Shown: positions 4,780-39,693 of the stretch, piece by piece | Layout: the number at the start of each line of letters is the position of its first letter | How positions within the stretch are numbered: position 1 is the first letter of the stretch | Assembly: GCF_000024885.1 (NCBI RefSeq) | Contig: NC_013512.1 | Location: 1,488,001 to 1,552,000 of the forward strand | Direction: 5' to 3' | Length of the DNA stretch: 64,000 nt | Source of the DNA: Sulfurospirillum deleyianum DSM 6946 | GTDB taxonomy: Bacteria > Campylobacterota > Campylobacteria > Campylobacterales > Sulfurospirillaceae | Notes under the pieces: model-generated | What the model was told of the DNA's origin: nothing | The model's database searches: none | Seen by the model: the letters and a program-made list of their open reading frames with translations, nothing else | Made by a program: the position numbers and the translations under genes

Positions 4780-5500
4780 GGCGTTCTCCTTTTTTTAAAA
4801 TCATCATAAAATACCCTGGTTTGCACAATTTGAGATTTTGCTCAAACGCACAGCACGCTTGAGGCGTTTCATCATCAAGGGTTTTGCTCCAAAACGCATT
4901 CATCGAACCGTGTGAAAAAATGATTTTCACCATCAGCTCTTTAAGCAATTGGCTACACTCTTCCAAAAGCATCACCTCAAAGTCCATCATTTCAAGCTCG
5001 TGTTGTAAAAGTGGCAAATGATGCAAGCCTCTCATGCACGAATTGAGCGAGAAATTTTCCATTGGTTTGAGCGCCTCAGGGTTTTTGGCATAGACATCAG
5101 TGATGACAAACCAACCGCCTTTTTCTAGCACTCTAAAGACCTCTTGTAAACTTACATGTAAAGCATTCATCAAGGACAAAGTACACTCAGCGATGACACA
5201 TTCAAAGCTTTCTTTCTCAAAAGGCAAAGATTCACCAAATCCCAAAACAAAGGTCGCAGAAGGATTTTTAGCCTTTGCCATCCCTAAAAGCTTGGAAGAA
5301 GGGTCAATCCCCACGACTTTAATGCCGTAATTTTCATACAAATACGAAGCCGTCGCACCCATGCCACAGCCCAAATCCAACACACGACTTTGTTCGTGAA
5401 GCGCACAAAAACTAAGGGCTTTTTGGGTAAGGGTAAATCCTCCAGGGCGTAAGGTTTCACCCGTGGCTTCTTGCATACAGCAACTCTCATAAGCATTCAT
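4772..5500 (-). CDS. Class I SAM-dependent methyltransferase, DVU_1556 type
   Basis: 242 residues, Methyltransf_11 fold. Motif I is VLDLGCGMGATASYL (about 40-54), followed by the acidic VVGIDPSS strand and an EVFRVLEKGGWFVITD motif typical of UbiE-like enzymes. It probably methylates a small molecule; the substrate is unknown. It lies 3 bases after the 67-residue CxxC gene and overlaps the next gene. An alternative is arsenite or thiol methylation, since several cysteines occur in the C-terminal half, but the fixed gene company favours a role tied to the aldehyde oxidoreductase. Confidence 0.82.
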   Translation of the reverse strand: MNAYESCCMQEATGETLRPGGFTLTQKALSFCALHEQSRVLDLGCGMGATASYLYENYGIKVVGIDPSSKLLGMAKAKNPSATFVLGFGESLPFEKESFECVIAECTLSLMNALHVSLQEVFRVLEKGGWFVITDVYAKNPEALKPMENFSLNSCMRGLHHLPLLQHELEMMDFEVMLLEECSQLLKELMVKIIFSHGSMNAFWSKTLDDETPQACCAFEQNLKLCKPGYFMMILKKGERHG

Positions 5501-5503
5501 CGC

Positions 5504-5707
5504 CTATTTATCCTCTAGCCCTTTTTCGACTTCCAGCATCTTGCCCATCGCCAACTCGTCGCTGATGAACACCATCTTACATGTAGGGCATTTTAAAAGT
5601 TCGACTTCAAAATTACCTTCCAAATAGCGCACCTTTACTTTTTCCGCTACTAAGGCTTTTTGGCACTTATCGCACATCCAGAGTGTCTGTTTTACGTGAT
5701 TTTCCAT
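5504..5707 (-). CDS. Small double-CxxC protein, DVU_1557 type
   Basis: 67 residues with two CxxC pairs, C12/C15 (MCDKC) and C40/C43 (KCPTC), the layout of a zinc ribbon or rubredoxin-like knuckle. I recall the cluster family being named a redox protein; sequence alone does not separate zinc from iron. It sits 2 bases after the dicluster flavoprotein and 3 before the methyltransferase. A near-match iterated palindrome (TTACATGTAG) encodes the TCK of the second CxxC pair, so the repeat overlaps a metal-ligand codon. Confidence 0.72.
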   Translation of the reverse strand: MENHVKQTLWMCDKCQKALVAEKVKVRYLEGNFEVELLKCPTCKMVFISDELAMGKMLEVEKGLEDK

Positions 5708-5709
5708 GA

Positions 5710-8097
5710 CTAGTTCTCCACCACTTCCATGCGATGACTGTACGCATCTTTGATAAAAATATCGCCGCCTTTCTCTTCATACTTCACCCAGTAGGTCACA
5801 TTTTGAATCCTAAGATGAGCAAGGTACTCTGAGGTTTGAGGGTTGAAAAAACGCTCTTTGGTTTTTTGCGCATGGTCAATCACGTGTTCAAGCTCACTCA
5901 CCAAAATAAAACGCTTTTCCATGAGTGCCACCACGTCATCACTTAGGTGCAGGGTAAAATCATACGTTGTATCTGTTCGCATTGTCTCCTCTTTCCATAT
6001 CTCTTTTAAAAGGCTCTGTTTAAGATGTTTTCGGTTGTTTTGTCGCTCGGAGAGGGTTGGCATTTTTTGAGGGGTTTGGTCACTTCCATAAATCAAATCC
6101 AAGATATGGTACGTTTTTTGATTGCCCTTGACCAACATATCTTTACACATTGCACAATAGACCAAAACATCGTGTTCGCTCTCTTGTTTTCGGTCACTCA
6201 CAAAATCACAGGCTTGTTCAGGATTGGCGTAGGCTACTAGCCCACCATACCCACAACATTTGGCTTTTTCTTTAGAAAATTCAAGCTCTTCAACTTTGTA
6301 GCCCAAGGTTTTAACAATGCCACGAATGCTCTCATGCACCTTGCTATCGTGTCTGGTCGCACACGCATCGTGAATGCACAGTTCTCGTTTCCCTTTTTTA
6401 ATGTCCACTTCTGGTAAACCGTATTTCTCAAAAACTTCCCATAACGAGATGGTTTTGATCATCGGCAGGTACTTCTCAAACGTCGCCGAACAGCTCGAAC
6501 AGGCGAGAATAAAGGTTGGCTCTTCCATCTCTTCCCACGTTTGGCGAATTTTTTCGATACTTTCAGGCATCAAATCAAGCCTCCCCGCCCAATCCGCAGG
6601 TGCGCCACAACAACCCAAATAAAGTCCCACATCATTGTTGGCATCTTTATCTTTAATGGAACCCACCAAATGTTTGTAAATCTCACCGATATGCTCTGTG
6701 TGTGTGGAACTGAGTTGGCACCCTGGATAGAAAAGGTAGCCTGTTTTGCCAGAACCCTTATAAAGCCCTCTGGCGTATGCCGAAAAAGCAATCACAGGGT
6801 AGTAAAAAAGCTCTTTTGACGCCTCTTTGCTCGGTTGTTTACGCACCAAAGAAAACGCATCACTGTGGCTAAAGCTCATATCTTTCAGGGCAAAATCATG
6901 CGCTGAAACAGGCATTTTCCCACGCTCAACCATACTTTCTCGTGTCATATGGATAATCTCTTTCATGCCAATATCCACAGGACACACTACTTTGCATAAA
7001 CCACACTGGGTACAAGCGTTAATCATCGCATTAGCATGGTGCGTTCCTAAGATAATGCGTTCATTGTGGTTGATACTTCGGATATAGCTATCGGGTGTTA
7101 TGTTGAAGCGTTGCAGATGCACACAAGCGTTGATGCACTCGTTGCATTGGCATTTAAGACACCTACTTGCTTCTTCCATCGCTTCTGCTTGTGTGTAAGA
7201 AGAACTACCTTGAACAACCGTTGGCACAAAAGGGACTTTATCCATCTTTACATGTAAACGTGTTTCAAAAATGCCCTCACGCTCTCTAGACGCCAACATC
7301 GAGGTTTTGTTAATGTATCTGTCTATCGAAACAGACGCTCGTTTGCCGGAACTGGCGGAAAAAATAATGGAGTCACTTTTGGTTTGAAGCTTTCCACCGA
7401 CAAACAAAGCGCTCTCATCGACTTGGAATGTGTGAGGGTTGATAGCATAAGCTTTCTCCCAAATTCCTGTACCTAAATATAAAGCGTCGTATTGGTCTTT
7501 GTAAGTTTGTAGGTTTTGCTCCGATATTTCGGTGTTATAGTAAACCGTAATCCCTTTTTTCTCAATCATAGAGAGCTCTTCTTCGATAGCGTGGGTTTCT
7601 AAACCTTTGCCCTCATATTCCCAAAGGCTTCCGCCTAAGCGATTTGTTTTTTCATAAATGCTGACGCTATAGCCTTTTTTATCGAGTTCCAAAGCGGCAA
7701 CGCACCCACTCAATCCTCCACCAATAATGGCAACCTTCCCTTTGGTTTTAGGTAGGGGAAAAGGTTTCTTAAGCGGTGTATAACCTAAATCAATCACGGT
7801 TTTTTCTAATTCACTGATGTGAATACTTCCACCTGCTTTTTCTCGAACACAGCTATTTTCACAGGGGTGGTCGCAAATTTTTCCAATGAGCCTGCTAAAG
7901 GGCATCTTTGTTTCCATGATTTTATACGCTTTAGCAAAATCACCTTTTTCGACTTCTCCCACAAAAGCAATGATGTCCATATGCACAGGGCACGATGCCA
8001 CGCAAACAGGTGGTTCCAAATGGATACATTGATTGCCAATTTCCAGTAATTTATCTAAATCCATTTGCTCATCCTCTTTCATTGCATCTAAAATCAA
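5710..8097 (-). CDS. FAD/NAD(P) oxidoreductase with FeS clusters and CCG domains (DVU_1558-type dicluster protein)
   Basis: 795 residues. In order: a GltD-like N-terminal cysteine domain (PVCVASCPVH, then CDHPCENSC); a dinucleotide-binding flavin domain starting VAIIGGGLSGCVAALEL (about 145); a cysteine-rich segment CLKCQCNECINAC; a ferredoxin motif CTQCGLCKVVCP; then heterodisulfide-reductase-like CCG domains (YPGCQ, YLGCCGAP, ACSSCSATF, CIHDAC, KCCGYGG). The last 90 residues are unlike these domains. It is cytoplasmic and probably passes electrons between the aldehyde oxidoreductase, 43 bases upstream, and NAD(P)H, ferredoxin or a thiol. HdrD/GlpC-like proteins share the CCG part, but the flavin fusion sets it apart. 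Confidence 0.85.
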   Translation of the reverse strand: MILDAMKEDEQMDLDKLLEIGNQCIHLEPPVCVASCPVHMDIIAFVGEVEKGDFAKAYKIMETKMPFSRLIGKICDHPCENSCVREKAGGSIHISELEKTVIDLGYTPLKKPFPLPKTKGKVAIIGGGLSGCVAALELDKKGYSVSIYEKTNRLGGSLWEYEGKGLETHAIEEELSMIEKKGITVYYNTEISEQNLQTYKDQYDALYLGTGIWEKAYAINPHTFQVDESALFVGGKLQTKSDSIIFSASSGKRASVSIDRYINKTSMLASREREGIFETRLHVKMDKVPFVPTVVQGSSSYTQAEAMEEASRCLKCQCNECINACVHLQRFNITPDSYIRSINHNERIILGTHHANAMINACTQCGLCKVVCPVDIGMKEIIHMTRESMVERGKMPVSAHDFALKDMSFSHSDAFSLVRKQPSKEASKELFYYPVIAFSAYARGLYKGSGKTGYLFYPGCQLSSTHTEHIGEIYKHLVGSIKDKDANNDVGLYLGCCGAPADWAGRLDLMPESIEKIRQTWEEMEEPTFILACSSCSATFEKYLPMIKTISLWEVFEKYGLPEVDIKKGKRELCIHDACATRHDSKVHESIRGIVKTLGYKVEELEFSKEKAKCCGYGGLVAYANPEQACDFVSDRKQESEHDVLVYCAMCKDMLVKGNQKTYHILDLIYGSDQTPQKMPTLSERQNNRKHLKQSLLKEIWKEETMRTDTTYDFTLHLSDDVVALMEKRFILVSELEHVIDHAQKTKERFFNPQTSEYLAHLRIQNVTYWVKYEEKGGDIFIKDAYSHRMEVVEN

Positions 8098-8140
8098 GAG
8101 GAATGGGATAGTTCTATCCCATTCACTCTGTAAAACACTT

Positions 8141-10864
8141 TTACTTCGCTAACGCCGCTAAGACTTTCTCTGGACGTGCTGGTAAGTGCGTAACTCTAGC
8201 ACCGCACGCATTGTAAATAGCGTTAATAATCGCCGCATGAGGAGCCGCCAAAGGCATCTCGCCTGCACCAGAAGCACCGTAGAAGTTATTTGCTCGTGGT
8301 GTTTCAGTATAGATGAGGTTGAGATTATCAGGTACATCTTTGATTTTAGGGATACCACATCCTGTAAGAGTAGTATGTTTTTTAAGATCATCAAAGTCTT
8401 CTGTTAATGCCAATCCAATACCTTGTACCAAACCACCATACATCTGTCCATCAGCGGCTAATCTGTTGATAATCGTACCGATGTCTGAAGCGAGTGTCAT
8501 TTTTTCCACTTGCGTTTTACCTGTTTGGGTATCGACTTCAACCTCGGCGACACACACACCATACATGTAACCCGCAAAAGGATTGCCTTGACCACCTGTT
8601 GGAGGGGTGTCGGTACATGGCGCTGTCCATTTACCCATGTATTTCACTTCTCTGCCCTCTGCAATCATCTCTTCATACGTTCGGTAGCTACCATCTTCTT
8701 TTTTCATCGCTTCCAGTAAGTTTTTGCACGCAACCGTAATCGCATTTCCTGTCACTAAGTTTTGACGGCTACCGCCTGATGGTCCACTGTTCGGTGTTTT
8801 AGTCATATCGTTCATCACAAGGTCAATCTGATCAATTCTCAATTTAAGCGGTCTGAGTGTCTCATGCGCATAGGTTAAGGTACCAATATCTGCACCTTGT
8901 CCATGGTCTTCCCAAGATGTACCAATCGCAACGCCTTTAGGAGTTACTTCCGCCCACGCTTCAGAGGTATCTGGACCATCCAAACCACAACCGTAAATAT
9001 TGACAGAAACACCCACGCCATATTTTTTAACTCCATCACTCGCAGCGTTTTTGCTTGCAGCTGTTTTTTTAGCGAGTTCATACACAGGACGACTTTTATC
9101 AAATAAGCCCTCTAAACAGTACGCATCAGGCGCACATCCTGTTGGGGTCGTTGAGCCTTCTCTGTAGATATTTTTATATCTGAATTCAAATGGATCCATA
9201 CCCACTTTTTCAGCCAATTCATCCACCAAAACCTCTGATGGGAACATAATCTCAGGAGCGCCATATCCACGGAAGGCAGAACCCCAACCATGATTGGTAC
9301 ACACGGTTCGTCCATTACCACGAATACTAGGGATGTTGTATCCTGCACCTCCAAATTGGAAACCACGTTGTGTGAGTAAGTCACCAAATTCAGAGTATGG
9401 ACCATGGTCAACACTCCAATCAGACTCAAGCGCTAAGATTTTTCCCTCTTTATCCGCCGCCATTTTCATCGTTGTCCAAAATGGTGAGCGTTTACCTGTA
9501 TACGTAATTTGTTGGAACATATTAAACTCAAGATATACTGGTCTTCCCGTCGCTAAGGTTGCCACACCTAAAAGCGCTTCAATGGTCGGGCTAAACTTAT
9601 AACCAAAAGTTGCACCAATGTTATTTTGAACGATGAAAACATCCTCTGCTTTCATACCCACACCCTCTGCAATCATCAAGGCATGGAAGTGAAGCGCAAT
9701 ACTTTTTGAGTGAATAATGAGTTTACCCTCATCATTGACATAGGCAAAACCAACATCTGGCTCAAGAGGTAAGTGTGGTTGGCGTTGTGTATAAAAACTA
9801 TCCTCTACCACATACGGAGCACTTGCCATAATCGGTGCTGTTTCACTCCCTTTAGCGATGTAGTTGGTAAAATAAACGTTAGGAGTCCCTGGGTGAATTT
9901 CAATCGCATCTTCTGCCATTGCATCTGGTGCGTTCATGTACGCTGGTAACTCTTCGATTTCAACTTTCACTTTATCGACACCTGCATGAGCTGCTTTTTC
10001 ATTATCGGCTAGAACGATAGCAATCGCATCACCAAATTGGAAGATTTTTTTGTCATTTAAAATCGGTCTATCCAAACCATCACCTTTGTTTGAAGGGAAA
10101 GCCAAACCATTAATGCGATTGGTTCCTTTAACATCTTTATAGGTCAATACAGCTACAACACCAGGCACTTTTTTCGCTTCTTCGGTGTCGATAGAGAGGA
10201 TATTGGCATGAGAGACTTTGGCTTGAACGATTTTGGCATGCAGGGTATTTTCAGGAAGCTTCAATCCCAAATCCGCACCAAAATCCCATGTTCCCATGAC
10301 TTTTGCCATCGCAGATGGACGGACAAGCTTTGAGCCAATCAAAGAAGCACCCTCAGGAATAGTCTTCCAAAAATCTTTGACACTCAACTCACCTCGAACG
10401 ATTTTTGCCGCATCCATAACCGCATCAACCAGTGGTTTGTAGCCTGTACAACGACAGAGGTTTTTATTTTTTTGGAACCAATCACGCACCTCTTCACGGC
10501 TTGGATTATTATTTTGCTCTAGAAGCGCTTTTGAGGAAACGATGAAACCAGGGGTACAAAAACCACATTGTGCGCCACCATGTACCATCCATGCAATTTG
10601 TACAGGATGAAGGTTGTCTTTGGTTCCAACACCTTCAACGGTAATAATTTCATCATTGTCTTCAATTTTTTTGATTTTTGTAATACAAGAACGTACCAAT
10701 TTACCATTTAAAATAACCGTACACGTACCACATTCCCCGCTACCACAGCCTACTTTTGTGCCTGTCAAACCTAATTGTTTTCGAAGCACATCCGACAACT
10801 TCGCCTCAGCATCCGCAACAAATGTTGTTTTCGCCCCATTGATCATCACTGTTCTTTTTAACAT
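8141..10864 (-). CDS. mop: Molybdopterin aldehyde oxidoreductase, Desulfovibrio Mop type
   Basis: 907 residues, the length of D. gigas Mop. Two [2Fe-2S] clusters are complete: plant-type C40, C45, C48, C60 and helical-type C100, C103, C137, C139. The molybdenum domains follow directly without an FAD domain. The catalytic glutamate falls at E869 in GASGAGEMPL. These residue numbers are the same as I recall for the D. gigas enzyme. It oxidises aldehydes to carboxylic acids in the cytoplasm with cytosine-dinucleotide molybdenum cofactor. It is the first gene of the nine-gene operon, and XdhC and the MobA-like protein downstream fit its maturation. Confidence 0.93.
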   Translation of the reverse strand: MLKRTVMINGAKTTFVADAEAKLSDVLRKQLGLTGTKVGCGSGECGTCTVILNGKLVRSCITKIKKIEDNDEIITVEGVGTKDNLHPVQIAWMVHGGAQCGFCTPGFIVSSKALLEQNNNPSREEVRDWFQKNKNLCRCTGYKPLVDAVMDAAKIVRGELSVKDFWKTIPEGASLIGSKLVRPSAMAKVMGTWDFGADLGLKLPENTLHAKIVQAKVSHANILSIDTEEAKKVPGVVAVLTYKDVKGTNRINGLAFPSNKGDGLDRPILNDKKIFQFGDAIAIVLADNEKAAHAGVDKVKVEIEELPAYMNAPDAMAEDAIEIHPGTPNVYFTNYIAKGSETAPIMASAPYVVEDSFYTQRQPHLPLEPDVGFAYVNDEGKLIIHSKSIALHFHALMIAEGVGMKAEDVFIVQNNIGATFGYKFSPTIEALLGVATLATGRPVYLEFNMFQQITYTGKRSPFWTTMKMAADKEGKILALESDWSVDHGPYSEFGDLLTQRGFQFGGAGYNIPSIRGNGRTVCTNHGWGSAFRGYGAPEIMFPSEVLVDELAEKVGMDPFEFRYKNIYREGSTTPTGCAPDAYCLEGLFDKSRPVYELAKKTAASKNAASDGVKKYGVGVSVNIYGCGLDGPDTSEAWAEVTPKGVAIGTSWEDHGQGADIGTLTYAHETLRPLKLRIDQIDLVMNDMTKTPNSGPSGGSRQNLVTGNAITVACKNLLEAMKKEDGSYRTYEEMIAEGREVKYMGKWTAPCTDTPPTGGQGNPFAGYMYGVCVAEVEVDTQTGKTQVEKMTLASDIGTIINRLAADGQMYGGLVQGIGLALTEDFDDLKKHTTLTGCGIPKIKDVPDNLNLIYTETPRANNFYGASGAGEMPLAAPHAAIINAIYNACGARVTHLPARPEKVLAALAK

Positions 10865-10959
10865 CGTTTTCCTTTTTTAAGAGTCTATTCGTAACGTTTT
10901 ACATGTAAGAATATGCAAAAATAACATATCTATCTCCATAGGCTTTTTGAAATTCCATG

Positions 10960-10998
10960 TTACCTCTACGCTATATGCTTTTTTAGCATATTACCTCT
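10960..10998. promoter_or_regulatory. Hairpin flanked by TTACCTCT direct repeats upstream of mop
   Basis: The 8-mer TTACCTCT occurs at 10960-10967 and 10991-10998, 31 bases apart (about three helical turns). Between them lies a 7-bp inverted repeat, ATATGCT at 10973-10979 and AGCATAT at 10985-10991, with a T5 loop. Located about 100 bases upstream of the mop start, it could be an operator for the mop operon. Function is inferred from position and symmetry only. Confidence 0.4.
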
Positions 10999-11126
10999 CA
11001 TGAGTTATCAAAAAACCACCCTTTTTTAAACCCCTCAAAAACACTCGCACCTAGCCAATGCCTCCATACATTAAAAGATTTTTTCCTCCTTTAAATTGGT
11101 TCTTATCTCTCTTTGCTTACCCAATC

Positions 11127-11156
11127 ATATAGCAAAAATATAGCATGAATATAGCA
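11127..11156 (+). promoter_or_regulatory. Three ATATAGCA repeats phased at 11 bp, likely response-regulator site
   Basis: ATATAGCA starts at 11127, 11138 and 11149, exactly 11 bases apart, which places each copy on the same DNA face. OmpR-family regulators bind direct repeats with this period, and an OmpR-type regulator is encoded just downstream (13193-13861). An inverted partial copy (GCTATAT) lies at 10970. The likely role is control of the kinase/regulator pair, possibly also mop. No mapped promoter supports this. Confidence 0.45.
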
Positions 11157-11306
11157 AAAAGGTTTCTGTGAAATCCTTTCGTTTGAAAGAGCTTTTTATG
11201 TGTGATTTTGTTACAAAAAAACCGTTTCTCTCTTCTTCCTCTTCATCGATGTGATGAGTTACAAGTTCATATTTGCTATCTTCTTTATACAGAAGGAGAA
11301 CGTTTT

Positions 11307-13196
11307 ATGCAAACAACAAATTTTTGTTATGAAAAAGGTTCCATAGATGAGCTGATAGATTTTTCTTGCTTTGCGCATGAAAAGCATGTTTTAGTACAAG
11401 TCTTTTGTGGACAAAGCAAAGAAATCTTTAATATGCTTACGCAAACCATTCTAAAACGCCTCCCTGATGCCATTTGTATCGGAACGACAACCGATGGCGA
11501 AATCTATGGCGAATCCATCACCACCTCACGAACCGTTGTCTCCATCAGCGTTTTTCAAAATACCTGTATTAAAACTGCTTTTGCCAATGATACAGACTCC
11601 TTTCAATGCGGAATACAAATCGCCTCCAAACTTATCACGCCCAATACCCAACTGTTAATTCTTTTCTCAGATGGCACCCGTATGAATGCTGAAAAGTTTT
11701 TGAAAGGTGTTGAATCCTTCAATGCCACGATTCCCATTTGTGGAGGTATGGCAGGGGATAATGGCAAATTTATTCAAACCTATATCTCTTCACAAAACAC
11801 CCTTTTAAGTGAAGGCGTTGTAGGGGTTTCATTGAACTCTGATGTTTTACATGTCGCCACAGATTATAAATTTGATTGGAAACCTATTGGACTCAAGCAC
11901 ACTATTACCAAAGTCAAGGACAATAGAGTTTACCTCATCGACGATATGAAAGCCTCTTATTTTTATGATAAATACTTAGGAAGTGATTTCTCTCAAATTG
12001 AATTTCCCCTTATCTTAGAAAAAAATGGTGTCACTATGGCACGTGCGGTCATCGCCAAACATGAAGATGGAAGCCTAAGTTACAGTGGCAATTTGGACGA
12101 AGGCGATGAGGTAAGAATTGGTTTTGGAGACGCTGAATCTTTAATGAGAGACCCCATCGAGGTCTTAGAAAATTTACACACCATCAATATCGAATCTTTT
12201 TATATCTTTTCGTGTATGGCTCGCAGAAGATTTATGCCTTTTCTTATCAAACTTGGCATTGGCTCTTTCTCAAAAATCGCCCCTGCTGCTGGATTTTTCA
12301 CCTATTCAGAATTTTACCACCATAAAGGGAGCAATAAACTGCTCAATCAAACCTTAACCGTTGTTGCACTCAGTGAATCCACAAAACCTTTGCGTGCCTT
12401 AGAAATTTTCCCAAAAGAAGAACCTAAAAAAAATACCTCCTATTCTAAAGCCATCCAATCCTTAACCCACCTCATAGAGCAAAGTGCGAGGGATTATGAC
12501 GAACAGTCCAAACGGCTAGAAGCGCAGATGAATTACTCTGAAAATCTTTTGGCATCGCACAAACAGTTTTTACGCTACACCGTGCATGAGATGAATACCC
12601 CACTGAGCGTCATTATGAGCAATATAGAACTCCACGAGATGGAGTTTGGTAAAAGTGTTTATTTAGAAAATATCGAAGTGGCGGTTAAAAGTATCTTCTC
12701 TATGTACGATGATCTCAGCTATCTTGTCCGAAAAGACCGTATTCAGTACCTCAAACATGAAATTGATTTGGTCGATTATATCCGTAGTCGTATCGACTTT
12801 TTTGCGCAAGTTGCTTCCAAAGCGAAATCGCTTTTTATCTTTCAAACAGACTGTGAAACAGCGTACATCACCTTTAATGAAACCAAATTACAACGTATTA
12901 TTGACAACAACCTCACCAATGCGATTAAATATACCTTTGAAAATGAGCATATTGTGGTTTCCCTCAAACAAAAAGAAGAGAGTTACCTTTTTTGCATTAC
13001 GTCACATTCACGAAAAATTCAAAAACCAGAGAAAGTTTTTGAAGAGTATTACCGAGAAGAACAAGCCAAAGATGGATTTGGGCTGGGGCTCAATCTTGTT
13101 AAAAGAATTTGTAAGGAAGAAAACGTGAAAATCAAACTCCATTCAGATGAAAATCTAACCTCTTTTTGTTATGAATTTAAGGTTAAAAACGTATGA
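11307..13196 (+). CDS. FIST-domain sensor histidine kinase
   Basis: 629 residues from the ATG at 11307, chosen over an upstream GTG at 11202 because AGAAGGAG sits 7-15 bases before it. The first 380 residues form a FIST sensor (FIST_N with ICIGTTTDGEIYGES, then FIST_C), a family proposed to bind small ligands. No membrane segment is seen, so sensing is cytoplasmic. A helical linker leads to the H-box YTVHEMNTPLSVIMSN with phospho-acceptor H427, and an ATPase domain ends with GFGLGLNLVKRI. It overlaps the response regulator gene by 4 bases. Being divergent from the mop operon, it may sense a substrate or product of that pathway (inference). Confidence 0.88.
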   Translation: MQTTNFCYEKGSIDELIDFSCFAHEKHVLVQVFCGQSKEIFNMLTQTILKRLPDAICIGTTTDGEIYGESITTSRTVVSISVFQNTCIKTAFANDTDSFQCGIQIASKLITPNTQLLILFSDGTRMNAEKFLKGVESFNATIPICGGMAGDNGKFIQTYISSQNTLLSEGVVGVSLNSDVLHVATDYKFDWKPIGLKHTITKVKDNRVYLIDDMKASYFYDKYLGSDFSQIEFPLILEKNGVTMARAVIAKHEDGSLSYSGNLDEGDEVRIGFGDAESLMRDPIEVLENLHTINIESFYIFSCMARRRFMPFLIKLGIGSFSKIAPAAGFFTYSEFYHHKGSNKLLNQTLTVVALSESTKPLRALEIFPKEEPKKNTSYSKAIQSLTHLIEQSARDYDEQSKRLEAQMNYSENLLASHKQFLRYTVHEMNTPLSVIMSNIELHEMEFGKSVYLENIEVAVKSIFSMYDDLSYLVRKDRIQYLKHEIDLVDYIRSRIDFFAQVASKAKSLFIFQTDCETAYITFNETKLQRIIDNNLTNAIKYTFENEHIVVSLKQKEESYLFCITSHSRKIQKPEKVFEEYYREEQAKDGFGLGLNLVKRICKEENVKIKLHSDENLTSFCYEFKVKNV

Positions 13197-13861
13197 AAAT
13201 TTTACTCTTAGAAGATGACATCCTCTTAAATGAGTCCATTACAAAGTACTTAAGCACGATGGGACATGCCATCACATCTGTACGAGATGGCAATGAATGT
13301 TTAAGCATTTTAGAAAAAGAAAAATTTGATCTGCTTGTCTTTGATATTAATGTCCCCAATATTGACGGTTTAAGTATTTTAGAGATACTTCATAAACAAA
13401 AAAAGGTAACCCCTGTTATTTTTACCTCAACCCTTATTGATATTGAGGATATTTCCCGTGCGTTTGATTTGGGGTGTTATGACTATCTCAAAAAACCCTT
13501 TCATCTCAAAGAGCTCTCCATTCGCATTGATAGAATCGCAAAAACAGCGACAAAAATCATGTGCCATAAGCGCCTCTCAAGCTCTTACAGTTTTAATTGT
13601 GAAACAATGACACTCTATTTTCACGATGAACCACAAATCCTCTCCAAACGACAACTCAAAGTCATAGAGTTTCTCACCCACAATCGAGGCTTTGTTTGTA
13701 GCTACGATATGTTTAGAGAAAGTGTTTGGGATGATTGCGATGGCTTTGTTGATGATGCGACCATTCGAACCGAAGTCAATCGCTTAAAAACACATTTGAA
13801 AGAGGATTTTATCGCGAATATAAGAGGCATAGGCTATACCATAAAAATTCCCACACTGTAA
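13193..13861 (+). CDS. OmpR-family response regulator, partner of the FIST kinase
   Basis: 222 residues. Receiver domain: acidic pair E7/D8/D9, phospho-acceptor D51 in VFDINVP, T80 and K101 in YLKKPF. A winged-helix Trans_reg_C domain follows, with SKRQLKVIEFL, SYDMFRESVW and DATIRTEVNRL in the recognition helix region, ending IRGIGYTIKI. It is coupled to the kinase by a 4-base overlap. Candidate targets are the 11-bp-phased ATATAGCA repeats upstream of the kinase and the mop promoter region. Confidence 0.9.
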   Translation: MKILLLEDDILLNESITKYLSTMGHAITSVRDGNECLSILEKEKFDLLVFDINVPNIDGLSILEILHKQKKVTPVIFTSTLIDIEDISRAFDLGCYDYLKKPFHLKELSIRIDRIAKTATKIMCHKRLSSSYSFNCETMTLYFHDEPQILSKRQLKVIEFLTHNRGFVCSYDMFRESVWDDCDGFVDDATIRTEVNRLKTHLKEDFIANIRGIGYTIKIPTL

Positions 13862-13885
13862 CGCATTATCTTTTTACATGTAAGG

Positions 13886-14197
13886 CTATTCAAAAAGCAC
13901 AATATAGGTGTGTTCAGGAATTTGACGCAGATAAAAAATCATCTTGGCTGGTTTTTGGGGGCATGTTGTGCTCGTAGAAGCTTTCATAAAAGGGAAAGAT
14001 GCCGTTTTCAAAATCTCCCCTTGTGCATTCAGCAGATGAAAATCATGCAAACCACATTTATTACGGCTATCGCTTTCACACGCAACACTCACACTTTTTT
14101 CTCGTTCGTTATAGCTTACATGTAAATCAATACTATAACTCACAGGATGTGCGTACAAAGAAGAAAAAAACAGATAAAACAGTAAAAAAACTCTCAT
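13886..14197 (-). CDS. Small exported protein of unknown function in the NicO/DUF1007 operon
   Basis: 103 residues beginning with a signal peptide (MRVFLLFYLFFSSLYA). The mature part has cysteines in VACESDSRNKCGLHDF and TTCPQKP, possibly disulfides or metal ligands in the periplasm. I recognise no family. Its start overlaps the DUF1007 stop by 4 bases, so it is the last gene of a four-gene operon that looks concerned with metal or redox handling. An iterated palindrome reads DLHVSY here, and another lies 3-10 bases past the stop codon. Confidence 0.6.
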   Translation of the reverse strand: MRVFLLFYLFFSSLYAHPVSYSIDLHVSYNEREKSVSVACESDSRNKCGLHDFHLLNAQGEILKTASFPFMKASTSTTCPQKPAKMIFYLRQIPEHTYIVLFE

Positions 14198-14676
14198 GGA
14201 TTAACTCCTAAACAAAAATCATACTCACTTTTTTGTACCTCATAAGCATAAACACTTTGAACACTCTCTAACTGATACGCCATATATAAAGTCGCATCAA
14301 TCGTGCAAAATATGGCAGGTTTCTTAAAATCATGAGGAGTAAAAAAAGAGAGCACGAGGCGTTTATTTTCAATATTAACATGCAAAGAGGTAGGAATAAG
14401 ACTTTGCTCAATCTCTGCTTCTTGAAAAAAAAGATTGAACTGATTAGCCCTTAAAGGCTCAATATACGTTGCTAAAAAATGCGCCTGCTCTTTGGCGTCT
14501 AAGATGCCATTTTTGTCTGTATCACATTCAAAGATTAAAAGCTTCGAATTGAGCCTATCAAAACGCCATGTATGCACCAGACGTTCTTTTTCAATCACAA
14601 GGCTCGTCTCAATAAAAAAGTGCGGGTGCGCAAAAAGCGTTACATGTAACCCCATGACAATCCAAAAAAATCTCAT
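14194..14676 (-). CDS. DUF1007-family periplasmic protein
   Basis: 160 residues from the ATG at 14676, which overlaps the NicO stop as ATGA. A longer frame runs upstream to 14985 but lies wholly inside the NicO gene and has implausible composition. The start gives a signal peptide (MRFFWIVMGLHVTLFAHPHF). DUF1007 proteins accompany NicO-type nickel/cobalt permeases. DTDKNGILD resembles an EF-hand loop. Likely role: periplasmic partner of the adjacent permease. A GTTACATGTAAC palindrome encodes LHVT inside the signal peptide. Confidence 0.8.
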   Translation of the reverse strand: MRFFWIVMGLHVTLFAHPHFFIETSLVIEKERLVHTWRFDRLNSKLLIFECDTDKNGILDAKEQAHFLATYIEPLRANQFNLFFQEAEIEQSLIPTSLHVNIENKRLVLSFFTPHDFKKPAIFCTIDATLYMAYQLESVQSVYAYEVQKSEYDFCLGVNP

Positions 14677-15416
14677 ACGAGTAGCAGAACTCCAAAGATA
14701 AAAAGCAAGAAAATACCCGCATAGCGAAGCAGAACTAAACGTTTTGCATAAGAACTTACAAACGAAGCGTTTTTCATGCGAGTCGTTGCAATGGCGGCAA
14801 TGGACATGGTGATCCCCATTCCAATACTCATACTCAAAGCACTGGCAACACCTAGGGTGTAATAGCCTAAAATCATTGCAAACAGAACAATACTCATCAC
14901 CCCAGGGCATGGCACAACGCCAATAGAGAGCGCAATCTTCAGCATGGTTGTTTTTCCCATAGCTTCTTCTTCTTTCTTCATGCAACCTTGATGCTCTTTG
15001 CGTACCTCATAGAGTAAAAAAGAGGCAATCCCAAGAATAAAGACCGCAGAGATTTTATACATATTTTCACTAATAAGCCCAAAATGCTTCATAATGCTCT
15101 CTTGAAAAAAGAAGTAGAGTATCGTCGTAACCCCTAGGGCAGAGAGCGTGTGAACTAAAGAGGTTAAAAAAGCAACTTTAAAGGCATCTTTTAGCTTAGC
15201 GCCATGGGCTAAAAAATAACTCGCAATGACCATTTTACCATGCCCAGGTCCTAGGGCATGCACCAAACCATACACAAAGGCTACGAGGATAATGTATCCA
15301 TACATAGCACTCCCTTGTGTTGTCTCTAAGGTATCAAACGCATCGCTAATAGCGCTGTTAATCTCTTTTTGCCAACCGATAATGTAGCTTAAAAAGGTAT
15401 GGTAAAGCTCACTCAT
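14673..15416 (-). CDS. NicO-family nickel/cobalt-type membrane transporter
   Basis: 247 residues with about six hydrophobic segments. HALGPGHGKMVIASYFLAHG (about 53-72) and the later SLVHTLSA give the histidine-rich transmembrane signature of the NicO/RcnA group, and GVVPCPGVMSIVLFA is a second conserved helix. The family moves nickel or cobalt; direction and metal are not settled by sequence. It overlaps the dihaem gene upstream and the DUF1007 gene downstream by 4 bases each. Confidence 0.85.
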   Translation of the reverse strand: MSELYHTFLSYIIGWQKEINSAISDAFDTLETTQGSAMYGYIILVAFVYGLVHALGPGHGKMVIASYFLAHGAKLKDAFKVAFLTSLVHTLSALGVTTILYFFFQESIMKHFGLISENMYKISAVFILGIASFLLYEVRKEHQGCMKKEEEAMGKTTMLKIALSIGVVPCPGVMSIVLFAMILGYYTLGVASALSMSIGMGITMSIAAIATTRMKNASFVSSYAKRLVLLRYAGIFLLFIFGVLLLV

Positions 15417-33258: not shown

Positions 33259-33555
33259 TTATTTAAATTTTTTAAAGAGTTGGGAGTGCGTTCCTAGCCT
33301 TACAAAAATGATGGCTCTATTTGAAACATCAAGTCGATAAATCAAAAGCCAATCGTTTTTAATATGACATTCATACGTTCCATCCCACTCCCCTTTTAAA
33401 AGGTGATTTTGGTGTTTTTCATGCAACACCTCACCGCTAAGCAGTACAGACATTACCTCTTTTAAAAGCGTAAAATCCTCGATTGAAAATTGCCCACTCT
33501 TTTTATCACGTTCAATATCTTTTTTAAAGAAGCGGTGATACTCTGGGGTGTACAT
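33259..33555 (-). CDS. YafQ-type RelE-superfamily mRNA interferase toxin
   Basis: 98 residues. FFKKDIERDKKSG, LLKGEWDGTYECHIKNDWLLIYRL and an HSQLF end match the YafQ branch of RelE toxins, which cut mRNA on the ribosome. H (DGTYECHI), D (KNDW) and the terminal H are the expected active-site residues. Its start shares a base with the antitoxin stop (33555). Confidence 0.88.
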   Translation of the reverse strand: MYTPEYHRFFKKDIERDKKSGQFSIEDFTLLKEVMSVLLSGEVLHEKHQNHLLKGEWDGTYECHIKNDWLLIYRLDVSNRAIIFVRLGTHSQLFKKFK

Positions 33556-33812
33556 TACAACCCTAAATCATCAAACAGTTCTTTTGAAGAGGTGTGTTTA
33601 ATGACATTTTTACCCTCTTTGGACTCTTGGATAGCTGTCGCTGTCTCTTCGTTAGGGATTTTGAGCTCAAAAGGAAGCCCTTTGTGAAGGACTACGCTGT
33701 GTAAAAAGAGTCGTGTGGCTTCACTGGTGGTTAAGCCCATTTGTTTAAGATACTCTGCTGCTTTGTTTTTAATTTCAGGGTCAATACGTACAGTCATCGC
33801 TGTTCCTGTCAT
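33555..33812 (-). CDS. RelB/DinJ-family antitoxin
   Basis: 85 residues. MTVRIDPEIKNKAAEYLKQMGLT followed by SEATRLFLHSVVLHKGLPFEL is the ribbon-helix-helix of DinJ/RelB, and the acidic-basic C-terminus would wrap the toxin. It precedes and is coupled to the toxin gene. A palindromic operator lies 28 bases upstream. Confidence 0.88.
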   Translation of the reverse strand: MTGTAMTVRIDPEIKNKAAEYLKQMGLTTSEATRLFLHSVVLHKGLPFELKIPNEETATAIQESKEGKNVIKHTSSKELFDDLGL

Positions 33813-34184: not shown

Positions 34185-34733
34185 TTAGCAAATTGCCCTA
34201 TTGCATGAAAGAATATCTATTTGAGAATGCTTGTAATCTTTATCATTGGTTAAAAGGATTAAGTCATTTTCTTCGCAGATTTTCACAATGGCTTTATCCA
34301 AAAAATCTAAGCTATCAACATGGCACATCATCAATAAATCAGACTTAGAAAAACTTCTTTCAACGACTTCAAAGGTAGCTAAAACATCATTTTTAACTAT
34401 GAGATAAATATCTTTTAGAGCTTCTTGCCCCTCTGGTAAATCTCTATACTTTTTATAAGACAACTCATTTTTTGTTAAATGTTTTTCTAACAAATAGTTA
34501 TCATATTCGAACCTAATCGCACGATTGACAAATTCAGCTATCACTACAAAATCTACAACAAATCTATTATCCTGATTATTTAGGCTTGTATAAAGTCTTG
34601 CATATTGGTCTTCCCAATTTGCATTTGTTGGCGTTCCATTGCCAAAAAGATAAATCAAAACATTGGTATCAAGAAAAATTGTTTTATTTTTGATAGGTGC
34701 AATAGATGATGGATTGTACCTATTCGCCATCAT
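34185..34733 (-). CDS. PIN-domain ribonuclease-like protein
   Basis: 182 residues. KTIFLDTNVLIYLFG (D22), VVIAEFVNRAI and LILLTNDKDYKH give the acidic residues of a PIN nuclease. PIN toxins cut RNA and need a partner to hold them off; here no classic antitoxin is adjacent. Instead it overlaps the DUF4325 gene by 14 bases and ends a four-gene operon with a GHKL ATPase and a restriction-modification enzyme. It may be the effector of that unit (inference). Confidence 0.82.
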   Translation of the reverse strand: MMANRYNPSSIAPIKNKTIFLDTNVLIYLFGNGTPTNANWEDQYARLYTSLNNQDNRFVVDFVVIAEFVNRAIRFEYDNYLLEKHLTKNELSYKKYRDLPEGQEALKDIYLIVKNDVLATFEVVERSFSKSDLLMMCHVDSLDFLDKAIVKICEENDLILLTNDKDYKHSQIDILSCNRAIC

Positions 34734-35079
34734 CTTCTCCTAAGATTTCCTGAATGGATGCCCTTATCTGCTCTGGATTTTTAAAATAATTTTTAGCATT
34801 GGTCGTTACTCTTTTTAAACGCACTTTTCCACTGTCGGACAAATCTTGAACCGATAAACTTTCTTTGATTTTATTTTCATCAAATTCGCCATAAAGCTTA
34901 CCGATGGCATTATTTAAAAAAGCCGTTGTCAGTTTATTGACATGTAAAAAAGAAAGAGAAGCTTTTTTATTTTCATTCAAGATTTTTTGTATCGTTTTAT
35001 AGACTTTATCACCATCTTCAGGCAATGTACAATCTTCCTGACCAACAATACTAAAAATATTGACTTTTACCTCATCCAT
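34720..35079 (-). CDS. STAS-like DUF4325 protein
   Basis: 119 residues. The segment KASLSFLHVNKLTTAFLNNAIGKLYGEF is typical of DUF4325, a STAS-like domain. STAS proteins act as switch partners of GHKL-type ATPases (as SpoIIAA does for SpoIIAB), and the ATPase gene lies 9 bases upstream. The acidic C-terminus (ILGEDDGE) overlaps the PIN gene start. It is probably a regulatory subunit of this unit. Confidence 0.75.
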   Translation of the reverse strand: MDEVKVNIFSIVGQEDCTLPEDGDKVYKTIQKILNENKKASLSFLHVNKLTTAFLNNAIGKLYGEFDENKIKESLSVQDLSDSGKVRLKRVTTNAKNYFKNPEQIRASIQEILGEDDGE

Positions 35080-35088
35080 CGTTTTTCC

Positions 35089-35967
35089 TTAAAATAACTC
35101 ATTTATATCAATTCTTTCTAACTCATTTGCAAATGTATAGGTCCTCATATCATCTATTTTAAACGTCATACTGATAACAGCACCATCAAAATAATAATCT
35201 AATTTTTGAATGACTTCTTTTTGATGACTAAATTCATAAAAAGCATCCCCACTAATGATTTGGATTTTACCATTGTTTTGTGAAATAAACTCTTTAAGCA
35301 AAGCCAGTCCCAAACCACCAGAAACCCCTTTTTTAGTAGTGTTTCCATCTATCATCGCCCATTTGATAGCACTGCATGAGTCTATTGCCATACCAAAATC
35401 TTTCTCGATTCGTTTTGCAAAACCTATTCCCGTATCTGCAATCGTAAAATTTAACTTATTATCTCTTGGAAAAAATTGTCCGCAGGTATAAATAAACTCT
35501 GTTTCACTGTGCATTTGAGCATTGATAAACATCTCTTGAATGGATTCACTGATTTTTTCATGGACGGCATCACTCATATTGGGAAATTCTGTTCTACTGA
35601 TAAGTTTTTCCTCTAAATATTGATTAAAATATCTATTGTCAGCGGGTTTTAGTTTTGTATATTCTATGGTCGTATGATTTGTATCATATGCTTTTTCGTA
35701 ACCATAAAATGACAAAAAACTATTTTTTTGTAAAATGGTTTTGATACTCTCGCCAATATAAATAAAATTGATATCATTAAGCCCATCATTTTTAATTTTA
35801 TCAAGGATTCCGCCTAAAACAGCACAAAGATTGGCATCGAACCATTGTCTTATTTGAATATCTAGTGTTTCAAATAAATCATTTTTATGCTCTTGATAAA
35901 GTTTTATAAGTTGATTGTAACTTGCTAAGTCATTGTGGATATTTGAAAGCGTATAAAGTGCCATCAA
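35089..35967 (-). CDS. GHKL/HATPase-domain protein paired with DUF4325
   Basis: 292 residues. The Bergerat ATP-binding fold covers the C-terminal 150 residues: N-box QEMFINAQMHSE, G1 box IADTGIGFAKRI, G2 box SGGLGLALLKEFI. There is no H-box or membrane segment, so it is not a standard histidine kinase. The N-terminal half is unrecognised. Its start overlaps the restriction enzyme stop as ATGA. Anti-sigma-like kinase, MutL-like and sensor roles are all possible; pairing with a STAS-like protein favours a switch kinase. Confidence 0.8.
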   Translation of the reverse strand: MMALYTLSNIHNDLASYNQLIKLYQEHKNDLFETLDIQIRQWFDANLCAVLGGILDKIKNDGLNDINFIYIGESIKTILQKNSFLSFYGYEKAYDTNHTTIEYTKLKPADNRYFNQYLEEKLISRTEFPNMSDAVHEKISESIQEMFINAQMHSETEFIYTCGQFFPRDNKLNFTIADTGIGFAKRIEKDFGMAIDSCSAIKWAMIDGNTTKKGVSGGLGLALLKEFISQNNGKIQIISGDAFYEFSHQKEVIQKLDYYFDGAVISMTFKIDDMRTYTFANELERIDINELF

Positions 35968-38888
35968 TTTCCCTCCACTATCTTTATCTCATCTTCGCTC
36001 AATCCGTAAAGTTTATAGACCATTGTATCTATCTCTTGTTCACACTCAATGACTCGTTTTTCAAGGGTTTCTATCTCTTTTTTGAGTTTGATTTCACGGT
36101 CAAAGTTATTACATGTAATCGCTTCATCGAGTAAGATTTTATAGTCTTTGATTTTTTGCTTTGACTCTAAAATTTCATCTACATGAACGATAAAAGGTTG
36201 TTGTGCCTCTTCTGAGATATCCTTAATGGGTAATGTGTTCATTTTATTAGCATCTAAACGAACTCTACCACCCTTTTCAGCATCACCAAAAGCGGGGAAA
36301 AGATACTTTTTGACAAAATCAAAGAGTTTAGAATTCAAAATACACTGTAAATATTTATTGGCATTGGCAATAAAATAACAATTTGCACTTATATAATAAC
36401 CCTCAGTGTCATAATAAAACTTATGATTTAACGCCGTATGATAGTAAATGAGTTTTGGCTCTTCTAATTTATCATAATAATCACATGCTCGAAGATTCCA
36501 GTAATTAAGCCCTTTATCTTGTCGTTTGATAAGTTCATCTCTAAACTGCTCTAAATAGTTAAAAACAGCAGGATAATTTTTTTGGATATCTGTATCATAT
36601 CCAGTAGCAACCATATAACGACCAGAGTGATTTATCTCCCATTTTCCAAAATCATCGCCTTCAACCATTTTTTTAAGAATTTGAGAAGAACTTTTATCTT
36701 GAATCATGATTTGTTGATACGTTTCTTTTTGAATAATAAAGGCTTTATTCAAACCTGTTTTAATTCCATAAAAAACTCCGCCATTGGTGTATTCTTTCAA
36801 TGTTGTATCTACATTTTTAAACTTTGCAAGAATAGCTGTCACTGTGGGGCTTGTAAACTTCCATATTTCGTCGGCTAATTCATCTTTGGAATAAGCACAA
36901 AATTGATAATCCATAGACTGGGCTTCAGAAAGAGATTTTACCATAATGTACAAAAGCTCATTGTCACTTTTTTTGTTTTCTAAAATAATAATGGCAGGTT
37001 CTGTCGAAGCATCTTCAAAAATATTGAGTTCACCGAAATTGACTAATTTTTGAATAGCATAAGGTTTCAGGTATTTTCGTAAATTGACACCATATTTTCG
37101 CTCCATCCATTTATTAGGTGTTATAAAACCTAAAATACCATTTTCTTTTAAAAGATTAATAGACAATTCATAGAAATAAACATACAAATCCGCTGTCGAA
37201 GTTGCAACATTTTGAAATTTTTGCATATACTGTTCTTTGATGATATTATCAATCGCTTCTTGTCTTACATATGGAGGATTGCCAATAACCACATCAAAAC
37301 TATTTTCCTCAAATGGCATTTCCAAAAGCGAATTAGCACATTTGATTTTATCACTCAAATTTGCCAGTGCTCTTCCCTTTTGTGCCGTTCTAAGCCACAA
37401 ACTTAGCCTTGCTATCTCCACCGCATCTTCGTTGATGTCCACGCCGTAAAGGTTGTTTTCTAAGATGGAGGCTTCTATCTCGTAGTAAGCGGTGATGTCG
37501 CCCATGATGGCGAGTTTTTCTTGGAGTTCTTTGTGCTCTTTTATGAGGTATTCTAACGCTTGATTGAGAAACGCCCCACTTCCACATGCTGGGTCAAGAA
37601 TCTTTACATGTAAAAGCCACTCTTTGTAACGCTCTAGGTTTTCTTTTGTAAGGGCTTCTTCTTTGGTAGGTTTTTTACTGTTTTTAGGCGCTTCCACGCT
37701 TTTTACATGTAAAGCTTCTTTTTGCTCTTCGCAAAGTTTTCCTAGTGTGTTTTCCACGATGTAACGTGTAATGTACTCAGGTGTATAAAAGACACCGTCT
37801 TTTTTGCGTTTGGAGTTTTTCTTATCAAATGCTAGGTCATTGATAGAAGCGTTGAGTTCTTCAAGGTCGCTCAAACTTTGCTCGAAGATATGCCCTAAGA
37901 TATTGACCGAGATGTCACTGACAAAGTCGTAGTTGCTTAGTTTTTGGGCGTTGGCATCCAAACAAACATCATCAATTTTAAGGCTATCTAAGAATTCATC
38001 GGTGGCAAACAGTCCACCGTTGTATTTGGGGATGTTTAGTTTGGCATTGCCTGTATTGATACCATCAAAATAGAACTTAAAAATGTCATAGAGTTTGTAG
38101 TCAGTAAAACGCTGGTTGGCGAACTCTTCACGTATCTCTTTGATGGTGTTGTGGCGAAGCAAGGCTCTATCTTCCGCAAAGAGAATGAAGATGATACGGT
38201 CACACAGTTTTTGGGTGAGACGAAGTAAAAGTGACTTGTCGATGTTGGGATTGTTTTCGATGATATTTTCAAAAAGCTGTGTTCTAAAAATGCTAAAGTC
38301 TTTGTACAGTTCTTTAGAGATACTCTGTTCAAAGTTAGCAGACTTTTCTTTGAGTTTTTGAGGGATATTTTCTTTGATACTTTCAAAACTCAGCAATAAA
38401 TGAAGCTTTTTAAACTCGTCATAACTCAAAGTAAAAAGGCTAAATTTCTCATAAGCGGTTTTTTTATCAATGTAAAATCGCAACTCATCAAAGTTCGAGA
38501 TGATAATATACTTTGAGTTCGAATGTGAATTGTGATAATTAAAAGCTTGTGCTTCAATAGCGTCTAATTGTTTTGTTTTTTGGTCTTTAAGCTCTACTAC
38601 GCCAACCACCTCACCCTTAACATAGATGACACCATCGGCTTTTTTCCCATCGGTTTCGTTTTTCTTTTCACGCTCTAGGTTGAAGTTACTAGGGTTTGTG
38701 CTATCAAGCGTGTAGCCCAAACATGCTTCAAAAATATCTTTTAAAAAACCATCTTGATACTTTTCTTCTTTGACGGTTTTTATAAAGTCTATTTTTGCTA
38801 AAAATTTTTGATACGCAGCCCAACGAAGAGCGACTTTGCTTTCATCTTGCACAAATGTGGTTAATACGGATTTTTGAAAGAGTGCCAA
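35964..38888 (-). CDS. Type IIG restriction-modification enzyme (Eco57I-like)
   Basis: 974 residues combining nuclease and methyltransferase. An N-terminal PD-(D/E)xK site is seen as D85 and E99-L-K101 (VVGVVELKDQ). A central N6-adenine methyltransferase has motif I LDPACGSGAFLNQ (about 430) and motif IV VVIGNPPYV (about 535). A C-terminal target-recognition region is more AT-rich, and a coiled tail (EIETLEKRVIECEQEI) ends the protein. One polypeptide should cut and methylate; the target sequence is not predictable here. It leads the operon ahead of the ATPase, DUF4325 and PIN genes. Three iterated palindromes lie within it. Confidence 0.9.
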   Translation of the reverse strand: MALFQKSVLTTFVQDESKVALRWAAYQKFLAKIDFIKTVKEEKYQDGFLKDIFEACLGYTLDSTNPSNFNLEREKKNETDGKKADGVIYVKGEVVGVVELKDQKTKQLDAIEAQAFNYHNSHSNSKYIIISNFDELRFYIDKKTAYEKFSLFTLSYDEFKKLHLLLSFESIKENIPQKLKEKSANFEQSISKELYKDFSIFRTQLFENIIENNPNIDKSLLLRLTQKLCDRIIFILFAEDRALLRHNTIKEIREEFANQRFTDYKLYDIFKFYFDGINTGNAKLNIPKYNGGLFATDEFLDSLKIDDVCLDANAQKLSNYDFVSDISVNILGHIFEQSLSDLEELNASINDLAFDKKNSKRKKDGVFYTPEYITRYIVENTLGKLCEEQKEALHVKSVEAPKNSKKPTKEEALTKENLERYKEWLLHVKILDPACGSGAFLNQALEYLIKEHKELQEKLAIMGDITAYYEIEASILENNLYGVDINEDAVEIARLSLWLRTAQKGRALANLSDKIKCANSLLEMPFEENSFDVVIGNPPYVRQEAIDNIIKEQYMQKFQNVATSTADLYVYFYELSINLLKENGILGFITPNKWMERKYGVNLRKYLKPYAIQKLVNFGELNIFEDASTEPAIIILENKKSDNELLYIMVKSLSEAQSMDYQFCAYSKDELADEIWKFTSPTVTAILAKFKNVDTTLKEYTNGGVFYGIKTGLNKAFIIQKETYQQIMIQDKSSSQILKKMVEGDDFGKWEINHSGRYMVATGYDTDIQKNYPAVFNYLEQFRDELIKRQDKGLNYWNLRACDYYDKLEEPKLIYYHTALNHKFYYDTEGYYISANCYFIANANKYLQCILNSKLFDFVKKYLFPAFGDAEKGGRVRLDANKMNTLPIKDISEEAQQPFIVHVDEILESKQKIKDYKILLDEAITCNNFDREIKLKKEIETLEKRVIECEQEIDTMVYKLYGLSEDEIKIVEGN

Positions 38889-38951
38889 AATAGAAACCTT
38901 TGTTTTACATGTAAAGATATTTTAACATACAAACGCTTTGCTTGACAAAAG

Positions 38952-39000: not shown

Positions 39001-39693
39001 CTAAACTCTATTTTCTTCCTTCAAACGATAGGTCATGACCAGATTAAAACAAAGCTCACTAAGCATCAGCAAGTCCCACATGGAGAGGATTTCTAAAAAG
39101 GGCATGCCCTCACTTAAGGCTTCAAAATCAATGTTACATGTAAAGACATAGGCATCATTTGGAGCGTCTAGTTCTGGGAGGTTTAGCGAGTATTGAAAGC
39201 GAAAGGTCATATTGGGATTGCGATTCATTCGACGGATACGTTTGAGCGTGCCATCATAGTCTTTCTCGCTCAAGCAAATCTCTGAGTGAATGTTATGGGA
39301 GAGGACATTGCGTACAAAGGAGAGTATGTCGAAGAAGTTTTCATACTGTTCCCCAAAAAGCTCTTGCATAAACGTTTTAAAAGGACTCTCAAACCGCAAA
39401 CTCTCCACCATCGCCATACAAATGCCCCGAAAAGCATTAAACTCGACAAAATACTCAAACAAGGAGATGGTTTCACTGGTTGTCTGACGCGCATTAATGA
39501 GAAGCTCTTGAATAATCTCAGCATTGAAGTAGTACGCTTTGCCCTCTTCGTATTTTTTCACCACAAAGAGGCTTCTATCGAGTAAATCTTCTGTTTTGGA
39601 GAGCTTGCCCAAAAACTCACCCATATGTAAAAAGTAAAAATTTTGCTCTACTAAGAGCAAAGCATCATCGAGTAACACATCTTGTGAAGTCAT
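39001..39693 (-). CDS. Helical protein of unknown function coupled to a molybdopterin oxidoreductase
   Basis: 230 residues, mostly predicted helix, no signal peptide or membrane span. I recognise no family. SFVRNVLSHNIHSE contains R-x4-H, which is HEPN-like but could be chance. Its start overlaps the oxidoreductase stop by 4 bases, which argues for a partner or maturation role of that enzyme, as TorD-type chaperones have, although TorD motifs are not visible. A palindrome copy encodes VFTCN. Confidence 0.55.
   Translation of the reverse strand: MTSQDVLLDDALLLVEQNFYFLHMGEFLGKLSKTEDLLDRSLFVVKKYEEGKAYYFNAEIIQELLINARQTTSETISLFEYFVEFNAFRGICMAMVESLRFESPFKTFMQELFGEQYENFFDILSFVRNVLSHNIHSEICLSEKDYDGTLKRIRRMNRNPNMTFRFQYSLNLPELDAPNDAYVFTCNIDFEALSEGMPFLEILSMWDLLMLSELCFNLVMTYRLKEENRV

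Follow-up and report, generated by a model that had tools for sequence, protein, structure and literature searches.

A type IIG restriction-modification gene followed by a probable vapKSC toxin switch in Sulfurospirillum deleyianum

VapKSC was described by Chambers et al. (EMBO J, June 2026; PMC13373217) and consists of a STAS-GHKL kinase, VapK, a STAS antitoxin, VapS, and a PIN toxin, VapC. The Escherichia VapC is toxic and its D28A variant is not. Escherichia VapS binds VapC and neutralises toxicity via a C-terminal helix, and the phospho-mimic S48E of VapS loses both binding and neutralisation. Escherichia vapKSC confers about 2 logs of protection against phage Bas42, which requires VapC D28, VapS S48 and VapK F54. 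CapK, a related kinase, is activated by single-stranded DNA (ssDNA). An immune gene lies within 10 kb of 36% of vapKSC, and 88 of 443 capKS pairs are directly downstream of restriction-modification (R-M) systems (PMC13373217). A comparable triad is found here behind a type IIG R-M gene in Sulfurospirillum deleyianum DSM 6946, at positions 34185–38888 of the window, i.e. the 64,000 nucleotide stretch of NC_013512.1 that was analysed (positions 1,488,001 to 1,552,000).

Defence systems nested inside other defence systems have precedent (PMC12255303; PMC11411939; PrrC, PMC2610378). DarTG2 in the type I R-M island of enteropathogenic E. coli lies inside an R-M operon between hsdS and hsdR (PMC12255303), and TgvAB of V. 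cholerae is likewise a second defence system embedded in an R-M operon (PMC11411939). Both differ from the present case in toxin chemistry and regulation.

The Sulfurospirillum triad and the R-M gene

The last three genes of the locus are almost certainly a vapKSC operon. A single solved complex, PDB 9Z7O (Escherichia VapS / VapC), is matched by both the DUF4325 and the PIN family profiles. The locus shares with Escherichia VapKSC (PMC13373217) the kinase/antitoxin/toxin architecture, the K-S-C order, the C-terminal helix of the antitoxin, the Ser/Thr acceptor and homologous chains; it differs in having a type IIG R-M gene whose 3′ end the triad overlaps. The initial annotation was aware of no named system of this composition, a view overtaken now that VapKSC has been named. 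PADLOC 2.0.0 and NCBIfam contain no model that names the three proteins.

VapK was first taken for a GHKL ATPase. The GHKL assignment stands, with the correction that a STAS domain is fused to the kinase domain and begins the chain. The match to Pfam HATPase_c has an E-value of 1.2e-5, slightly under the curated cut-off, and the sequence displays an N-box (E144/N148/H152), a G1 box (D177–G179) and a G2 box (G216–G219). The STAS part has profile matches to TM1442 and RsbS. An AlphaFold2 (AF2) model (pLDDT, the predicted local distance difference test score, 87.5) has SpoIIAB as its best PDB fold (E = 6e-5). W41 occupies an aromatic column and is only a candidate counterpart of the conserved phenylalanine F54 of Escherichia VapK, which is at the putative ssDNA site.

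VapS matches Pfam DUF4325 (E = 1.3e-15). Its family was assigned by sequence profile against 9Z7O (E = 2e-28 for the family profile, 6e-12 for the window VapS alone), since Foldseek with the VapS model gave weak STAS matches and none that was strong. In the AF2 model helices at positions 82–100 and 102–113 form the C-terminal helical extension. The phospho-acceptor T52 is intact and aligns with Escherichia S48. VapC matches Pfam PIN (E = 1.4e-9), and its family profile matches 9Z7O (E = 2e-16). The conserved acidic residues are D21, E66, D142, D145, D163 and D165, numbered from the second ATG at 34730. By sequence, the catalytic motifs of the triad are intact.

The window proteins carry the VapKSC features that are legible in sequence, with W41 only a candidate for F54, and the published mechanism probably holds at the Sulfurospirillum locus as well. 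A switch of the SpoIIAB/SpoIIAA type holding a PIN nuclease had been proposed at the outset, and this was borne out: the ATPase model is closest to SpoIIAB and the same triad has been shown to work in this manner (PMC13373217). As in SpoIIAB/SpoIIAA and RsbW/RsbV, a GHKL Ser/Thr kinase acts on a STAS protein (partner switching), but the target in those pairs is a sigma factor and in VapKSC it is a nuclease. CapK/CapS is also a kinase and STAS substrate pair, one that responds to DNA damage; however CapS is a DNA-binding repressor with a winged helix-turn-helix (wHTH) and CapK carries a helix-turn-helix (HTH) (PMC13373217), whereas the substrate in the window triad is an antitoxin, VapK displays no HTH and VapS has no wHTH match. 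A role of the three proteins as R-M subunits was dismissed, the triad being widespread without R-M.

The R-M enzyme matches PADLOC type IIG model PDLC03609 (E = 7e-194) and Pfam Eco57I (1.5e-42), and has an HSDR_N-like nuclease region. It displays the methylase motifs DPACGSGAF and NPPY. Nuclease, N6-methylase and specificity parts, as placed by domain profiles, all appear to reside in one chain, which is the arrangement expected of type IIG.

The four genes are tightly packed on the minus strand, as the initial annotation had reported (Table 1). The R-M TGA stop and the vapK ATG share one base (TGATG), vapK and vapS are separated by a 9 bp gap, and vapS and vapC overlap by 14 or 11 bases according to which vapC start is used. 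The hexamers upstream of the R-M gene are TTGTCA-18-TAAAAT, a 10/12 consensus match with TG ahead of the -10. The locus is probably best explained as a vapKSC toxin switch that shares an operon with a type IIG R-M enzyme.

Table 1. Features of the locus, in window coordinates
Feature	Position	Strand	Description
Type IIG R-M enzyme	35964..38888	-	974 aa, TTG start; nuclease, Eco57I/N6 methylase, TaqI_C-like specificity domain
VapK	35089..35964	-	291 aa; N-terminal STAS and GHKL kinase domain
VapS (DUF4325)	34720..35079	-	119 aa; STAS-like antitoxin with C-terminal helical extension
VapC	34185..34733	-	PIN nuclease toxin; start at 34733 or second ATG 34730
Promoter-like hexamers	38887..38948	-	just 5′ of R-M gene; consensus match only
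RelB/YafQ toxin-antitoxin pair	33259..33812	-	downstream, within inserted block; outside VapKSC

The locus is present once in the complete 2.3 Mb host genome, where it holds the one DUF4325 gene and the sole N6_Mtase gene. Three congeners (G005, G009, G016) have the flanking gene (39001–39693 in the window) directly adjoining glnB. Because these two flanking genes are adjacent there, the block comprising the R-M gene, the triad and RelB/YafQ is an insertion relative to the three congeners. The RelB/YafQ pair has a separate promoter-like site of its own. A 56-residue frame at about 33,920 on the plus strand, with the look of a gene remnant, has no Pfam family match.

Distribution and repeated placement in R-M operons

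Distribution was followed with the profile and alignment of the PIN protein; a single-protein DUF4325 scan of genome contigs found nothing. The PIN profile detected matches in 7 of 397 genomes within the phylum, and more in other phyla, on a Deinococcus gobiensis plasmid and on viral contigs. In nearly every strong match the PIN gene is preceded by GHKL and DUF4325 genes, and some 18 additional bacterial loci and six phage or viral contigs share the K-S-C order. Thus the three genes, whose joint occurrence elsewhere the initial annotation had made a test of its proposal, are together almost without exception. The exceptions are an Acidimicrobiia assembly (G442, below) and L088, where a lone PIN gene is followed by genes that look KilA-N-like and type III Res-like, as read by eye and not by profile; two weak matches (L076, L081) are also outside a triad setting. 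Searches of plasmids and phages by tblastn gave few matches, and two of the profiles (A8, A9) diverged too far to be used on more viral sequences.

At 6 of the 19 bacterial loci vapKSC is inside or directly against an R-M operon, and several unrelated R-M types are represented. Besides the window, where the type IIG gene overlaps the start of vapK, one locus (L051) has the order hsdM-hsdS-vapKSC-hsdR with gaps of 3 and 17 bp, and a second (L046) reads hsdM-hsdS-unknown-vapKSC followed by an hsdR fragment of 126 aa only. In L047 vapKSC follows an N6_Mtase and Methylase_S enzyme after a 55 bp gap. L078 is type III-like, with an N6_N4 methylase, AAA_21, AlbA_2, vapKSC and a Res-like gene in that order; the Res assignment is from position after the methylase and from sequence, with no profile search. 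In L079 VapC overlaps a DUF1156 methylase and VapK is cut by the contig end. R-M-like or restriction genes are also near vapKSC in L048 and L087, which are not counted among the six.

An N6_Mtase gene is within about three genes at 4 of the 19 loci, against 0.7% expected per locus (p ~7e-6, or 2e-4 without the window); the null is simple gene adjacency, given a genome average of about 2.7 N6_Mtase matches, and it overstates significance because defence genes cluster. The R-M label must have changed at least four times on the VapK tree to fit its well-supported branches, thus the R-M association has been gained or lost repeatedly. Repeated vapKSC embedding in R-M operons has no prior description in the text of PMC13373217 or in the open-licence literature searched. 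The switch itself is already named; the novelty is in the repeated embedding, together with the kinase-less VapSC described below.

Coupling to restriction and the alternatives

In the proposed model the R-M enzyme would first attack unmodified DNA. Cleavage and repair, or phage that evades restriction, would then supply ends and ssDNA that activate VapK, after which VapC would be released and growth would stop. The initial annotation had suggested a layered defence, with restriction first and PIN release later. This is plausible as an inference and is strengthened by the repeated embedding; the part that changes is the trigger, which in the published work is ssDNA or DNA damage and not restriction failure as such. 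VapK activation could not be tested in the paper that named VapKSC, and an R-M-coupled operon would be a natural source of the trigger. The subject bears on how fast, non-lethal restriction communicates with slow, suicidal defence, and an R-M-coupled vapKSC is a compact, testable case of whether restriction itself makes the toxin-arming signal.

In a wider form of this model, restriction products (ends, ssDNA) would be what triggers VapK physiologically, and growth arrest by VapC would follow when the R-M enzyme cuts or is overwhelmed. Type I, IIG and III systems would each have recruited the triad, as a plug-in, on separate occasions. This wider form, taken jointly with the reversion of VapSC discussed below, is tentative.

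Several observations weigh against coupling. The R-M label shows no more clustering on the VapK tree than chance would give. No R-M gene adjoins about half or more of the vapKSC loci, and VapKSC needs none. Defence genes cluster in any case, in islands that the adjacency null ignores. Direct activation of VapK by ssDNA has not been shown even for Escherichia (PMC13373217).

The strongest alternative is that vapKSC is a passenger, i.e. an independent mobile toxin-antitoxin defence module that has settled at the 3′ end of R-M operons, where insertions are common, and that shares transcription with the R-M enzyme but no signal. The type IIG homologues in relatives (L113–L127; 44–60% identity across most or all of their length) bear different genes at their 3′ ends according to the genome, e.g. 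a TPR protein, DUF2971, HEPN with AlbA_2, AAA_14 and unknowns, and these are mutually unrelated. The position abutting these type IIG genes on the 3′ side resembles a cargo slot, one that could supply candidate defence genes. Since this cargo varies, a passive insertion slot was taken as the null model, and functional coupling of VapKSC to the R-M enzyme is put somewhat below an even chance; the passive slot is nearly as likely. VapKSC is also found alone, on phages and on a plasmid. In L078 (positions 4655–15001) short open reading frames of 105 and 95 aa that resemble the Res-like N-terminus are beside the inserted AlbA_2 and vapKSC modules, as if recombination had brought the modules in and copied the 5′ end of res in doing so; the duplicated N-termini would be an insertion scar. 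However the embedding is repeated in type I, IIG and III operons, is co-directional and has near-zero spacing, and it is paralleled by the capKS pairs directly after R-M systems (PMC13373217). The passenger explanation is a serious one that falls short of probable.

In two related genomes (L030, L032) this slot holds a different GHKL-DUF4325 pair, which also favours a passive slot: the R-M gene overlaps a GHKL gene that is followed by a short DUF4325 gene (96 aa) with no PIN gene. These kinase-STAS pairs belong to an R-M operon but have no evident effector.

It is unlikely that the toxin-antitoxin pair chiefly stabilises the inserted R-M block against loss. A second pair, RelB/YafQ, is present in the block and kinase-less DUF4325-PIN pairs occur in many copies in G442, but a dedicated kinase input and the measured anti-phage effect of a homologue point to a triggered effector.

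Least probable of all is a guard arrangement like that of PrrC, in which the R-M protein itself keeps VapKSC inactive until a phage anti-restriction protein frees it: vapKSC is between hsdS and hsdR in L051 and L046, but VapKSC cloned in E. coli needs no R-M partner of its own to work (PMC13373217) and comes with an inhibitor, VapS, and PrrC orthologues, unlike VapKSC, are reportedly always linked to type Ic R-M. PrrC with EcoprrI, and RloC, resemble the present case as RNA-cutting translation blockers that are tied to an R-M operon as a second line of defence. They differ as ABC-ATPase anticodon nucleases held by the type I enzyme with no kinase or STAS partner, whereas the domains of the triad are GHKL, STAS and PIN.

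The acceptor column and VapSC pairs without a kinase

Every VapS with a VapK neighbour has Ser or Thr two residues before a conserved Phe (23 aligned sequences, with L056 and L092 read directly). A different picture is seen in G442, an Acidimicrobiia metagenome assembly (L049, L071–L075). It has seven VapC genes, each preceded by DUF4325, and an eighth DUF4325 gene followed by a decayed PIN start. No VapK or GHKL kinase was detected genome-wide in this assembly. In six of the eight VapS the acceptor column is Ala or Pro; the copies are related, the source is a metagenome, and most carry Ser/Thr one residue earlier, so that a shifted acceptor is possible.

Kinase-less VapSC is not mentioned in the text of PMC13373217 or in the open-licence literature searched. 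The VapK-less pairs may have lost the acceptor and reverted to a plain toxin-antitoxin pair. This proposal belongs with that of restriction products as the VapK trigger, and is as tentative as the two together.

The temperate Streptococcus phage Javan172 (L091) has vapKSC between the repressor region and the integrase, and its record does not label the open frame at 5170–5700 of L091 as VapC. At one chromosomal spot beside an efflux operon (L025, L026, L027), a single Sulfurospirillum-like genome carries vapKSC and two others have a convergent GHKL/DUF4325 pair but no PIN, which is read as replacement of one module by another. L079, a DUF1156 / DUF499-HEPN_Swt1 locus with vapKSC genes, also encodes a HATPase-DUF4325 fusion protein (positions 4188–5228).
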